From Acidobacteriota bacterium (GTDB lineage Bacteria > Acidobacteriota > UBA6911), in the NCBI GenBank assembly GCA_031271905.1, contig JAISUT010000025.1:1-64000 (forward strand): a stretch of 64,000 nt of DNA. Reading direction: 5' to 3'. Positions 58,457-63,435 of the stretch are shown here, in pieces; positions within the stretch are counted from its first letter, which is position 1, and each line of letters starts with the position of its first letter. The notes under the pieces are model-generated. The model was not told the origin of the DNA, did no database searches, and saw only the letters and a program-made list of their open reading frames with translations. The position numbers and the translations under genes were made by a program.

Positions 58457-58486
58457 TTGTTTTTTTATGACGTAAATAACTATATG
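58457..58486 (+). promoter_or_regulatory. Candidate promoter of the selenoprotein gene
   Basis: TTGTTT (58457-58462) and TATATG (58481-58486) with 18 bases between them lie in a locally AT-rich patch, 147 bases before the start codon. Confidence 0.45.
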
Positions 58487-58633
58487 CTCAGTGCGTCACG
58501 GTCGTGGTGATCGCATTCGGCTAAGGGGATTGCACCGCTGCGCCGATCTGCACGGGAGCGGTTCCCGCGAAAGTGGCGGCATGTGAGCATATTGATTGGC
58601 ATCATGAATATAAAAACAAACGGAGGAACAAGC

Positions 58634-60379
58634 ATGAAATTGCGCATTGCAGTGATCGCGGCTTTATGCGCGGGCTTGGTCTGTGGCGTGTGCGTCACGG
58701 GCAACGCCCAGGTCGCGGCCGCGGCCAAGGTTACCGTGCTCAACCCGATGGGCACGCCACCGCCCATCCAGTTGAAGCAGATGGCGGAGCGCCCGACGAC
58801 GCTCGACGGCAAGACCATATACCTGGTCAACACCGGCTTTGTCGGCACCGAACGCCTCATGGAAGTGATGGAGGAGTGGTTCAAGGAAAACCACCCCAAG
58901 ACCACCATCGTCTCCAAACGCAACCCCAGCATGGATGTGGCCGACAAGGCCCTCTGGGCTGAAATCCAAGAGAAGGCCGACGGCGTCGTCATCGGCCTCG
59001 GCCATTGAAGTGTCTGTGCGCCTGGGGCGGTCCGCCTCAGCATAGACATCGAATCCAACCTTAAGAAACCCTCGATCCCCCTCATCCTGAACGATTTCTA
59101 CGAGCAGGAGAAGGAAGTCGCCTACACGAGCGGCATGCCCGGCCTCCGCATCCAGTATTTCCGGGGCCCGGTCTGGGGCAAGACGCACGACCAGCTCCGC
59201 AAGATGATCATCCAGGGCAACAACCCGATCACGGGCAAGCCCGTGATGCCGGAGATCATCGAGAAGCTGACCAAGCCGCTGACCGCCGAGGAGAAGAAGA
59301 CCGGCACCGCCACGCTGGACGTGGGGCCGGACACCTACACCGGCACGCCGGACGAGTTGCAGCAGTTGTACCTCGACAAGCGGTACACCGACTTCATGCC
59401 GATCATCCTGCCCACCGTGGAAAAGGTGGAGGAGATGCTCAAGGGCACCAGCCATGAGCCCGACGAGATCGTCGGCCGCATGAACCCCGGCTCCGAAGCC
59501 GGAGACACCTGGTCCTACACGGTGAAAGACGTCGCCATCAGCGCCGTCATGGCGGGCGCCAAGCCGGAATACCTCCCGGTCATCCTGGCGCTGGCATCCA
59601 CCGGCACCACCCCGGTCAACGTCTCGGACAACGGCTTCATGGCGGGCGCGGTCATCAACGGCGCCATCCGCCAGGAGATCGGCCTGAACTACGAGATCGG
59701 AGCGGTGGGGCCCTACGCCCACGCCAACACGACCATCGGCCGCGCGTGGAACCTGGTCGCCATCAACGGCGCCAACTGCGGCAAGGTCGGCACCACCTAC
59801 ATGGGGACGGTCGGCAACCCGATGAACGCCATCGACGTCATCATCGCCGAGAACGAGGAGCAGTCGCCGTTCGAGCCGTTCGCGGTCCGGCGCGGCTTCA
59901 AGAAAGACGAGAACATCGTCACCGTGTTCATGGGCTGGGGCATCCTTTCGGCGAAGAACTGGAAGGCCGACGTCTGGGGTCCGAACATGAACTATCCGCA
60001 GATCATCAAGGACATCTACAACCAGCAGGACGCCATGTTCGGGACCGTCGCGGTCCTGAGCCCGCCGATCGCCGATTTCGTCCGCGACGGCGGCCACGCC
60101 ACGGTGGAGGACTTCACCAAGTGGGTGCAGGCCGACGCCTTGGCGGCAGGTCCGATGACGGCTTTCGGCCCCGCCAAGCCCGAGGGGAAACCCGCGGGCG
60201 AAGGCAAGCCCCCCGCCGGGAAGGCGCCCGCAGGCAAGGGCGCGTCCAAGGGCAAGGGCGGCTTCGGCCCGATGGCGCCGCAGTTCAACGTGGTCGTCAC
60301 CGGCGGCACCAACAACAACTACTTCATGATGGGCGGCATGGTTCCGGCCGCGTCCGTCCAGATCGACAAGTGGCGGTAG
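58634..60379 (+). CDS. Exported UGSC-type selenoprotein with in-frame TGA (Sec125)
   Basis: The frame from ATG 58634 (GGAGG seven bases upstream) to the stop at 60377-60379 contains a single TGA at 59006-59008. Read as selenocysteine it gives 581 residues. Residues 1-25 are a signal peptide (cleavage near GNAQV). Residues 35-250 resemble the UGSC-like thiol/selenol domain (LDGKTIYLVNTGF, GVVIGLGH), with Sec125-Ser-Val-Cys128 in the place of the family U-G-S-C motif. The C-terminal half (310-520; AVMAGAKPEYLPVILAL, IGRAWNLVAINGA, IAENEEQSPFEPF) looks like the conserved partner domain of those proteins. A Pro/Gly/Lys linker precedes the last strand. A SECIS hairpin follows the TGA directly. No ribosome site exists for a separate downstream gene (next ATG 59135). 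The family name is from memory; the redox role is inferred. Confidence 0.85.
59006..59047 (+). promoter_or_regulatory. Selenocysteine codon and bacterial SECIS element
   Basis: TGA (59006-59008) is followed three bases later by a stem-loop. The outer stem is GTCTGTGC (59012-59019) with GCATAGAC (59040-59047), 8 bp with one G-U. There is a three-base 5' bulge (59020-59022). The inner stem is TGGGGC (59023-59028) with GCCTCA (59034-59039), 6 bp with one G-U. The apical loop is GGUCC (59029-59033). The first loop G is 21 bases after the end of TGA, within the known bacterial range, and GGUC matches the loop of the E. coli fdhF element. Confidence 0.85.
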
Positions 60380-60410
60380 CGCGGTAGCGTTGCAGCCGTT
60401 TGCGTCACCT

Positions 60411-60447
60411 GCCGGCGGTGGGAGCGATTCCCGCCGCCGGCTTTTTT
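60411..60447 (+). terminator. Rho-independent terminator after the selenoprotein gene
   Basis: GCCGGCGGTGGGA pairs with TCCCGCCGCCGGC around a short loop and runs into six T (60442-60447). It separates the selenoprotein gene from korDABC. Confidence 0.92.
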
Positions 60448-60489
60448 CATGTGGCGAACACCCTTCGGCCGGGATCCCGAGATTGCTTA

Positions 60490-60518
60490 TTGCCCTGACG
60501 GGCCTTGGCGGGTAGATT
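60490..60518 (+). promoter_or_regulatory. Candidate promoter of korDABC
   Basis: TTGCCC (60490-60495) and TAGATT (60513-60518) are 17 bases apart in an AT-rich stretch just before the korD ribosome site. Confidence 0.45.
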
Positions 60519-60541
60519 AATAAGTTAAAAAAGGAGCAGGC

Positions 60542-60790
60542 ATGGCCGAAGCGAAGAAACCGAAAAGCCCCAAGGGGACGGTCGCGATCAATGTCGAGTT
60601 GTGCAAAGGCTGCGGCTTTTGCATCGCCTTCTGCCCGTCGGGGGTGCTGGAGTTTTCGGACAAGTTCAACAGCAAGGGGTACCATCCGCCGCACGCCGCG
60701 AACCCTGAGAAGTGCGTCGGTTGCGGCCTTTGCGGCATGTACTGCCCCGACTTCGCGATTTTCGGGACGCGCAACAAGGAAGTCGCGTGA
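60542..60790 (+). CDS. korD: 2-Oxoacid:ferredoxin oxidoreductase ferredoxin subunit (delta)
   Basis: This 82-residue two-cluster ferredoxin has CKGCGFCIAFCP and CVGCGLCGMYCP. It starts at ATG 60542 after AAAAAAGGAG. It carries electrons from the Kor active site to free ferredoxin. It is the first gene of a tightly packed four-gene operon ordered D-A-B-C. Confidence 0.93.
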   Translation: MAEAKKPKSPKGTVAINVELCKGCGFCIAFCPSGVLEFSDKFNSKGYHPPHAANPEKCVGCGLCGMYCPDFAIFGTRNKEVA

Positions 60791-60845
60791 GGATGCGGCG
60801 CGCCTGCGACGCCGGGCGCGGGGAAGCAGTTGGAAAGGAGAACAG

Positions 60846-62045
60846 TTGAAAGCGGATCCCAAAGGAGTTTTGACCGGCGCCCATTTTTTGGACGGTGACC
60901 ACGCCTGTTGCGAGGGGGCGCTGGCCGCAGGCTGCCGGTTCGCCGCAGGCTACCCCATCACCCCCTCGACAGAGGTCGTGGAACGCATCGCGGCGCGGTT
61001 CCCGTCCGTGGGCGGCATCTTCATCCAGATGGAGGACGAGCTGGCGTCGTCCATCGCCCTGCAGGGGGCGGTCTGGGGCGGCGCCAAGGCGATGACGGTG
61101 ACCTCCGGGCCGGGCTTTTCGCTCATGATGGAGCACATCGGCTACGCCGCCATGGTCGAGACGCCGTGCGTCTTCGTCGATGTGCAGCGCAGCGGCCCCT
61201 CGACGGGCTTGCCGACCCTGCCGGCGCAGGCCGACATGATGCAGGCGCGCTGGGGGAGCCACGGCGACTACGAGGTCATCGCCCTCTGCCCGAACTCGCC
61301 CCAGGAGTGCTTCGACCTGACGATCAAGGCGTTCAACCTGGCCGAGGTCTACCGCGTGCCGGTCATGATGATGATGGACGAGTGCGTCGGCCACATGACC
61401 GAGAAAGTGGTCATCCCCAAGGCGAGCGAGATCCATGTCGAGCCGCGCCGCTATACCACGGCCAAGCCCGAGGACTACCTCCCCTTCAAGGCCGAGAAGA
61501 ACTCCGCGCCGCCGATGGTTCGGGCGGGGGACGGCTACCGCTTCCATGTGACCGGTCTGACGCACGACGAGCGCGGCTACCCGGTCACGAACGCCGAGGT
61601 GCAGGACCGCTGCGTGCGCCGCCTGGTGGACAAGATCCGCGCCAACGCCCGGCAGATCATCATGCTGGAGGAGAGCGACACCTCCGACGCCGACATCGTG
61701 GTGGTCTCCTACGGCATCACCTCGCGCGTCGCGGTCAAGGCCATCCAGCAGGCGCGGGAGGACGGCTACAAGGTCGGGCACCTGCGGCTGGTCACCGCGT
61801 GGCCCTTCCCGGAGAAGCGCCTGCGCACGCTCGCCTCGCACGTCAAGGCGTTCATCATGCCGGAGCTGAACCTGGGCCAGATGTATTTCGAGATGCAACG
61901 TTGCGTCGAGGGGCGCGCCGCCACCTACCTGCTGCCCCACGCGGGCGGGAGCGTCCACGACCCCGAACTCATCTACCAGAAGATCGCCTACGCGGCCCGG
62001 CACATGCGCGTGAAGGAAGGCAAGGAAAAGGAGGCTGCCAAGTGA
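60846..62045 (+). CDS. korA: 2-Oxoglutarate:ferredoxin oxidoreductase, alpha subunit
   Basis: This 399-residue subunit has CRFAAGYPITPSTEV, MEDELASSIALQGA and TSGPGFSLMMEHIG, typical of KorA/VorB-type alpha chains. The start is TTG 60846 with AAAGGAG five bases upstream. The stop overlaps the korB start. 2-Oxoglutarate is the most likely substrate from subunit layout; a branched-chain 2-oxoacid is the alternative. Confidence 0.92.
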   Translation: MKADPKGVLTGAHFLDGDHACCEGALAAGCRFAAGYPITPSTEVVERIAARFPSVGGIFIQMEDELASSIALQGAVWGGAKAMTVTSGPGFSLMMEHIGYAAMVETPCVFVDVQRSGPSTGLPTLPAQADMMQARWGSHGDYEVIALCPNSPQECFDLTIKAFNLAEVYRVPVMMMMDECVGHMTEKVVIPKASEIHVEPRRYTTAKPEDYLPFKAEKNSAPPMVRAGDGYRFHVTGLTHDERGYPVTNAEVQDRCVRRLVDKIRANARQIIMLEESDTSDADIVVVSYGITSRVAVKAIQQAREDGYKVGHLRLVTAWPFPEKRLRTLASHVKAFIMPELNLGQMYFEMQRCVEGRAATYLLPHAGGSVHDPELIYQKIAYAARHMRVKEGKEKEAAK

Positions 62046-62899
62046 GCCCCACGACGAAGAACCCGCGGAACCAGTACCTGCGCACGGATCGGATGCCGCA
62101 CATCTGGTGCCCCGGCTGCGGGCTGGGGACGACCATCAACTGCTTCATCACCGCCGTCGAGGAGTGCGGGCTGCCGTTGGACCTCATCAGCGTGGTCTCC
62201 GGCATCGGCTGCACGGGCCGCATCGCCGGCTACCTGAAGCTGGACAGCTTCCACACCACGCACGGCCGCCCGATTCCGTTCGCCACCGGGCTGAAGCTCG
62301 CCAACCCCAAGCTCAAGGTGGTGGTCTTCAGCGGCGACGGCGACCTGTGCGCCATCGGCGGCAACCACTTCATCCACGCCGCGCGGCGCAACATGGACTT
62401 GACCATCATCTGCGTCAACAACTTCACCTACGGCATGACGGGCGGGCAGGTGACGCCGACCACCCCGATGGAGGCGGTCTCCTCGACCACCCCCTACGGC
62501 AACATCGAGGAGCCGTTCAACCTGCCGTTCTTGGCCGACTGCTCCGGCGCGGTCTACGTGGCGCGCTGGACCACGTTCCACGTCCGGCAGGCCGCCAAGG
62601 CGATGCGCGAGGCCATCCAGAAGAACGGCTTCAGCTTCGTGGAGATCATCAGCCCCTGCCCGACGCTCTACGGGCGGCGCAACAAGCTGGGCGACGGGCT
62701 CAAGATGATGCAGGCGTTCAAGGACAACAGCGTGGTCTGCAACGACGCCGACACGCGCTCCGTGGCGCTCGACTTCCGCGGCAAGATCGCCTGCGGGAAG
62801 TTCGTGGATCGCGAGAAGACCTCGTTCCTTGACATGTACAACACCAAGATGGCCGAGCGGTTCGGGCCTTTCTACGAGCCGTACGAGGGCGTGAAATGA
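62042..62899 (+). CDS. korB: 2-Oxoglutarate:ferredoxin oxidoreductase, beta (TPP) subunit
   Basis: This 285-residue thiamine-diphosphate subunit has HIWCPGCGLG, SGIGCTGRIAGY, SGDGDLCAIGGNHF and NNFTYGMTGGQ. These provide the cluster ligands and the TPP/Mg site. The start is GTG 62042, overlapping the korA stop (GTGA), so translation is coupled. The korC start overlaps its stop in turn. Confidence 0.93.
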   Translation: MSPTTKNPRNQYLRTDRMPHIWCPGCGLGTTINCFITAVEECGLPLDLISVVSGIGCTGRIAGYLKLDSFHTTHGRPIPFATGLKLANPKLKVVVFSGDGDLCAIGGNHFIHAARRNMDLTIICVNNFTYGMTGGQVTPTTPMEAVSSTTPYGNIEEPFNLPFLADCSGAVYVARWTTFHVRQAAKAMREAIQKNGFSFVEIISPCPTLYGRRNKLGDGLKMMQAFKDNSVVCNDADTRSVALDFRGKIACGKFVDREKTSFLDMYNTKMAERFGPFYEPYEGVK

Positions 62900-63435
62900 C
62901 GACGGAGATAAAATTCGGCGGCTTCGGCGGACAGGGGGTGATCTTGGCGGGGATCATCATCGGGCGCGCCGCCAGCATCCTGGACCACAAATACGCGACG
63001 CTGACGCAGAGCTTCGGGCCGGAGGCGCGCGGCGGGGCCTGCAGCGCCCAAGTCATCATCTCCGACGACAAGATCCTGTACCCCTACGTGACCCGTCCGG
63101 AGATACTGGTCGCCATGTCGCAGGAGGCGTGCAACAAGTTCCTGCCCGAGGCGGCGGACGACGCGACGGTCATCATCGAGGAAGACCTGGTCAAGCCCAG
63201 GGGGGTCAAGCCGGGGATGAGCGTCTTCGCCATCCCGGCCACGCGCTTCGCCGAGGAGCTGGGGCCCAAGATGATCCTGAACATCGTGATGGTCGGCTTT
63301 TTCACCGCGGTGACGAAGCTCGTCTCCCACAAGTCGGTGCGCGAGACGGTCAAGGGCTCCGTGCCGCTGGGCACCGAGACGATGAACTTGATGGCGTTCG
63401 ACCGCGGCTACGAGTACGGCCAGGCGCTGGTCTGA
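62896..63435 (+). CDS. korC: 2-Oxoglutarate:ferredoxin oxidoreductase, gamma subunit
   Basis: This 179-residue subunit shows FGGFGGQGVILAG and SFGPEARGGACSAQV, the CoA-binding gamma-chain motifs. It starts at ATG 62896, overlapping the korB stop (ATGA). It is a paralogue of iorB in the same window. The operon ends here; no terminator was identified. Confidence 0.93.
   Translation: MTTEIKFGGFGGQGVILAGIIIGRAASILDHKYATLTQSFGPEARGGACSAQVIISDDKILYPYVTRPEILVAMSQEACNKFLPEAADDATVIIEEDLVKPRGVKPGMSVFAIPATRFAEELGPKMILNIVMVGFFTAVTKLVSHKSVRETVKGSVPLGTETMNLMAFDRGYEYGQALV

Follow-up and report, generated by a model that had tools for sequence, protein, structure and literature searches.

The gene at positions 58634-60379 of the window, by which we mean the whole analysed stretch of 64,000 nucleotides from an Acidobacteriota bacterium, almost certainly encodes a selenoprotein. 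An in-frame UGA at codon 125 is read as selenocysteine (Sec125), paired with Cys128 in an N-terminal UGSC domain fused to a second, C-terminal domain. Taken as a whole, we consider this reading, with export of the product, likely; more tentatively, we propose that the family consists of substrate-specific selenol reductases. In the following, we lay out the evidence for the selenocysteine, for the two domains and for the expansion of the family, and discuss what the protein may do.

Table 1. Features of the selenoprotein gene and its product (positions in the window)
Feature	Position	Strand	Details and basis
UGSC-fusion selenoprotein gene	58634..60379	+	581 residues with UGA as Sec125; direct reading, full-length orthologues
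Ribosome-binding site GGAGG	58622..58626	+	7 bases 5' of the ATG; direct reading
Predicted signal peptide region at the N-terminus (MKLRIAVIAALCAGLVCGVC...), residues 1-32	58634..58729	+	Mean hydropathy 2.86 over 12 residues; similar N-termini in orthologues
UGSC domain, residues 33-200	58730..59233	+	PF24696, E 2e-18; pLDDT about 95; HH 99.9% to standalone UGSC; flavodoxin-like alpha/beta in the model
In-frame UGA, selenocysteine 125	59006..59008	+	Direct reading; TGA in all orthologues
SECIS-like hairpin	59010..59049	+	GUC apical loop (59030-59032), 21 bases downstream of the UGA; folding, constrained scan, covarying stem pairs across the family
Cys128 of the U-S-V-C motif, presumed to be the resolving cysteine	59015..59017	+	117/117 UGA paralogues; start of helix 128-142 in the model
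C-terminal partner domain, residues 204-581	59243..60376	+	Separate gene elsewhere; profile match 100%, E 3e-116; models
Low-confidence linker 508-547 inside the partner domain	60155..60274	+	Model
Intrinsic terminator	60411..60441	+	14-pair stem, then TTTTTT; strong

The in-frame UGA

Read directly, the frame runs from the ATG over 124 codons to the TGA, the only one in an otherwise unbroken frame, and over a further 456 codons to the TAG at 60377-60379. This is how an earlier note on the same DNA had described it, and its observation that the downstream half has no ribosome-binding site also holds, the first in-frame ATG (59135) lying 127 bases beyond the TGA. As TGA is a stop codon under table 11, the locus could be taken for two separate proteins or a pseudogene, the UGA then being either a genuine stop or a nonsense mutation and the downstream half being translated on its own or not at all. 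We give these readings practically no credence, since they are refuted by the conservation of the codon: eight orthologues from MAGs of other Acidobacteriota cover the full length, with 63-71% best-segment identity, and each of the eight has TGA at the identical codon and Cys at +3 (S-V/L-C after the TGA); strict conservation of the UGA and of the protein sequence flanking it extends over all orthologues and 117 members of the family. A stop would, moreover, cut the UGSC domain midway and leave a downstream half with neither a ribosome site nor an ATG before 59135, in a genome with complete Sec machinery. Likewise, the eight orthologous TGAs and the Cys at +3 in 117/117 family members exclude chance or a sequencing error at 59006, the latter a concern of the earlier note, and wholesale reassignment of TGA is refuted by the adjacent ferredoxin gene (60542-60790), which terminates in an ordinary TGA. 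Homologues have Sec at position 125, and never Cys; the Sec-free paralogues are described below.

The host genome, which is 99.8% complete, encodes SelA, SelB, SelD and a tRNA-Sec with the anticodon TCA (70 bits). Its SelD gene (L209, C3:17258-18190) itself has one in-frame TGA (G-U-A-A-K).

In bacterial Sec insertion, SelB reads a hairpin just after the UGA, with an apical loop about 16-37 bases downstream and a G in the first two loop positions. The hairpin in Table 1 agrees with this in both loop position and loop sequence, and SelB and tRNA-Sec would act on it just 3' of UGA 59006 if insertion follows the established bacterial route. The 45 bases from the UGA (59006-59050), where the earlier note had proposed to search for such an element, fold with -24 kcal/mol (z = -4.7), a stability reached by none of 200 shuffles. 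Across the family, the difference in energy is modest, with a constrained hairpin mean of -12.5 after the UGA versus -10.0 at in-frame positions picked at random within these genes (48 UGA genes, p 3e-4) and of -11.2 in seven non-UGA paralogues. Better evidence comes from covariation within the stem, where G-C to A-T, G-C to C-G and C-G to T-A exchanges affect both sides at several positions, and from an increased identity of the codons for conserved residues downstream of the UGA (SSC, p 0.01; PGC, p 0.003; DSC, p 0.002), both being counts that ignore the relatedness among the sequences. The orthologues themselves keep the stem less well, weak folding behind the UGA being seen in several SLC members, and for codon conservation the SVC/SLC class offers one usable column only. 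Because the TGA is kept in all orthologues, the Sec machinery is present and the hairpin is strong, we regard the insertion of Sec at UGA 59006 as close to certain; the computational checks suggested in the earlier note thus speak for its reading.

With its own GGAGG and a terminator behind it, the gene looks monocistronic and probably has its own transcript end at 60411-60441. Its neighbours, named from sequence reading, are a uvrA-like gene upstream on the other strand and, immediately 3' (60542-63435), the ferredoxin gene and 2-oxoacid:ferredoxin oxidoreductase-like genes; the latter group was not seen beside the orthologues, whose neighbours vary from locus to locus, and we saw no conserved gene neighbourhood. 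Two long open frames on the minus strand (58480-59085 and 58664-60862) overlie the gene, as expected in G+C-rich coding DNA, and bear no sign of being genes. No match pointed to a phage origin of the selenoprotein gene.

The UGSC domain

The N-terminal domain belongs to the UGSC family, as the earlier note had suggested: residues 35-191 match PF24696 with 67 bits against a gathering score of 25, and a profile comparison with standalone UGSC proteins gives 99.9% at an E-value of 1e-36. The cut-off of the narrower equivalog NF041046, which describes standalone UGSC, is missed with 37 bits against 125; the protein is a relative of this equivalog, not a member. It shares with the standalone proteins (PF24696, NF041046) the N-terminal domain, the Sec position, the UxxC motif and the flanking sequence, but differs from them in its fusion to a second domain, its predicted signal peptide and its USVC in place of UGSC. 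The note was right that USVC departs from the literal Sec-Gly-Ser-Cys, but the departure is not a singular oddity, since UGSC occurs in just 22 of the 117 UGA-containing family members, and SVC is one of eleven forms found after the UGA (SSC, DGC, GSC, SLC, WGC, DSC, SVC, PGC, HGC, SQC and STC).

In an AlphaFold2 model of the full protein (pLDDT 86, pTM 0.84), Sec125 comes after strand 117-123 and before helix 128-142 in a domain of parallel alpha/beta type. PDB entries match the model weakly; flavodoxin, flavodiiron, PTS IIB and hydantoin racemase are among them, and the best 50 contain no thioredoxin. The UGSC domain thus appears, as modelled, to be flavodoxin-like: it shares the U-x-x-C at a helix start with thioredoxin-fold selenoproteins, but is predicted to form a parallel flavodoxin-like sandwich without thioredoxin topology. 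A Trx-like fold, suggested in the passages on UGSC of a 2008 survey (PMC2398784), is not supported by this predicted model.

A more distant resemblance may exist to the GrdB-type proteins. GrdB and PrdB are Sec subunits of glycine and proline reductases, which act together with a partner subunit. When GrdB-type proteins are read through their UGA, the UGSC domain aligns with them, Sec on Sec, at an HH score of 82% and an E-value of 1e-5, in a single, weak comparison over 53 columns. The likeness to GrdB/PrdB (PF07355) is limited to a short core, in which the U-x-x-C follows a strand with D-A-V and precedes a helix with E-x-x-G-I-P-T, and we treat the relation as a lead. The partner domain of the protein described here, by contrast, is not of the GrdE/PrdA type (PF09338), for which the profile probability is 0.1-0.2% and no match was obtained. 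Separately, PF07355 matches in other Acidobacteriota (L195-L208) include small GrdB-like frames whose end falls immediately ahead of a UGA, with P-x-C or P-x-x-C encoded behind it; with the UGA translated, these resemble another widespread family of selenoproteins, which annotation would truncate.

The C-terminal partner domain and the fusion

The fused partner domain of the earlier note is real. Elsewhere in the Acidobacteriota it stands alone as a protein of some 350-450 residues, whose gene adjoins a standalone, UGA-containing UGSC gene at ten of the loci examined, and the fused and standalone versions match at 100% (E 3e-116). The gene at 58634-60379 is therefore a joining of two genes that are neighbours in other genomes. 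Among Pfam, NCBIfam and PDB sequences, we found no meaningful relatives of the domain. A standalone partner was modelled with a pLDDT of 80 and a pTM of 0.83, and the PDB structure search with the partner domain gave no significant match; a fumarate hydratase subunit, its best match with an E-value of 1.1e-3, is not meaningful at a TM score of 0.25.

The fusion itself does not fall outside what is known, for the passages on UGSC in the 2008 survey of the Global Ocean Sampling data report that a UGSC selenoprotein is joined to a conserved, uncharacterised domain, Unknown_1 (PMC2398784, Figure S1A). Our fusion resembles it in combining UGSC with an uncharacterised domain, although Unknown_1 can be likened to the partner domain by description only. 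Those same passages include neither an expansion of the family nor a separate neighbouring partner gene, both of which are seen here.

Expansion of the family in the genus

Family copies number 11-30 per genome in all ten genomes of the genus, mostly with one TGA, although these genomes are drafts with an estimated contamination of 1-7%, so that counts for individual species may be off. The host genome has 11 matches, six of them with one TGA, so that the gene described here has at least five UGA-containing paralogues beside it in its genome; one genome (G007) has 18 UGA-containing fused genes, which were read individually (L055, L094-L111), and another (G005) has 18 entries with one TGA. Of five genomes from the remainder of the taxonomic family, one has a single copy. 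In the tree, the same paralogue classes turn up in different species.

Among 133 distinct fused proteins, 117 contain the UGA, and every one of these has Cys at +3. The remaining 16 have Ser (11), Thr, Gly, Leu, Asn or Ala at the Sec position, none has Cys there, and 15 of them have also lost the Cys at +3. The tree (FastTree, with some long branches) forces at least four changes between UGA and non-UGA states on well-supported branches. As the two residues are lost together in 15 of 16 cases and through at least four changes, Sec and Cys behave as one unit. These comparisons of paralogues make it as good as shown that Sec125 works as a pair with Cys128, and bear out the earlier description of Sec-Ser-Val-Cys as a UxxC redox pair. 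The sixteenth protein (L175, contig C178 of G008) retains the Cys behind a Leu (GQLDTC), possibly through a recent loss of Sec or an assembly error.

The family members also differ at their N-termini. Export, proposed in the earlier note, is predicted for the copy at 58634-60379 from its hydrophobic N-terminus, on inspection of the sequence, but does not extend to some paralogue classes, which have no signal. With start codons chosen by rule, and counts therefore approximate, lipoprotein boxes are seen in some of the other paralogues and no signal in others, and 8 of the 16 Sec-free members begin with a Tat-like RR-x-F/L motif; several DGC and PGC members appear to be cytoplasmic. In the host genome, the Sec-free paralogues L044 (4224-9974 on contig C67, in tandem) and L045 (5174-7078 on contig C19, single) have twin-arginine-type signals (TRRGFIK and TRRSFLK) and lack both Sec and the Cys at +3.

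Possible function

We found no biochemistry on this family. The relation of the C-terminal domain to the UGSC domain as neighbour or fusion partner, its conserved polar residues N365, R370 and E406, and the diversification of the family suggest that this domain may be a substrate binder, with paralogues differing in their substrate. Tentatively, and with a little less than even confidence, we propose the following mechanism. The selenol of Sec125, at a helix start on the flavodoxin-like core, would attack a substrate held by the C-terminal domain; Cys128 would resolve the intermediate to a selenide-sulfide, which an envelope thiol reductase would re-reduce. The paralogues, which differ in the Sec-Cys spacer and in their N-terminal signals, may then have specialised by substrate or compartment.

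The main rival to a substrate-specific reductase is a general thiol or peroxide reductase of the envelope, in which the Sec-Cys pair only passes electrons, as in thioredoxins or peroxiredoxins, and the partner serves as a docking or assembly module. UxxC is indeed a classical redox pair, and one standalone partner protein (L083, 2206-3498), divergent to its adjoining UGSC gene, starts with an extra thioredoxin-like CPTC stretch with weak Pfam and thioredoxin matches, which might point to an electron donor. We nevertheless think this role unlikely, since the model is flavodoxin-like with no thioredoxin among its 50 best structure matches, such a reductase would hardly need 11-30 diverged paralogues, and N365, R370 and E406 are kept even in copies without Sec and Cys. 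Exposed U-x-x-C pairs can also bind soft metals, and a selenol-thiol pair might handle metals or metalloids in the envelope. This appears very improbable, given that no metal-resistance genes were noticed adjoining the gene, that its neighbours are not conserved and that the Sec-free paralogues retain the rest of the protein.

Returning to substrate-specific reduction, its widest form is a possibility that we hold with some reserve: in this uncultured genus, a single selenoprotein may have given rise to a large family of mostly exported selenol reductases, each combining a GrdB-like Sec domain with a predicted, hitherto unnamed substrate-binding domain of new fold and a varied Sec-Cys spacer, with repeated conversion to Sec-free members (several of them Tat-type) that kept the fold and not the redox pair.

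Implications

A bacterial genome usually holds one member, or a few, of any given selenoprotein family. In the open-access literature searched, we found no report of a genus-wide amplification of the UGSC fusion; UGSC selenoproteins and one UGSC fusion were already described in the passages cited above (PMC2398784), and it is the expansion of the family that is unusual. A single family here supplies up to 18 UGA genes per genome, compared with 57 and 63 genes in the largest whole bacterial selenoproteomes reported (PMC13188914). Annotation without UGA read-through splits more than 100 genes of this genus in two. The absence of any Sec-to-Cys change among 133 distinct proteins from ten genomes amounts to a natural experiment on the retention of Sec, and the uncharacterised UGSC family gains a partner, a predicted fold and a testable two-domain mechanism.
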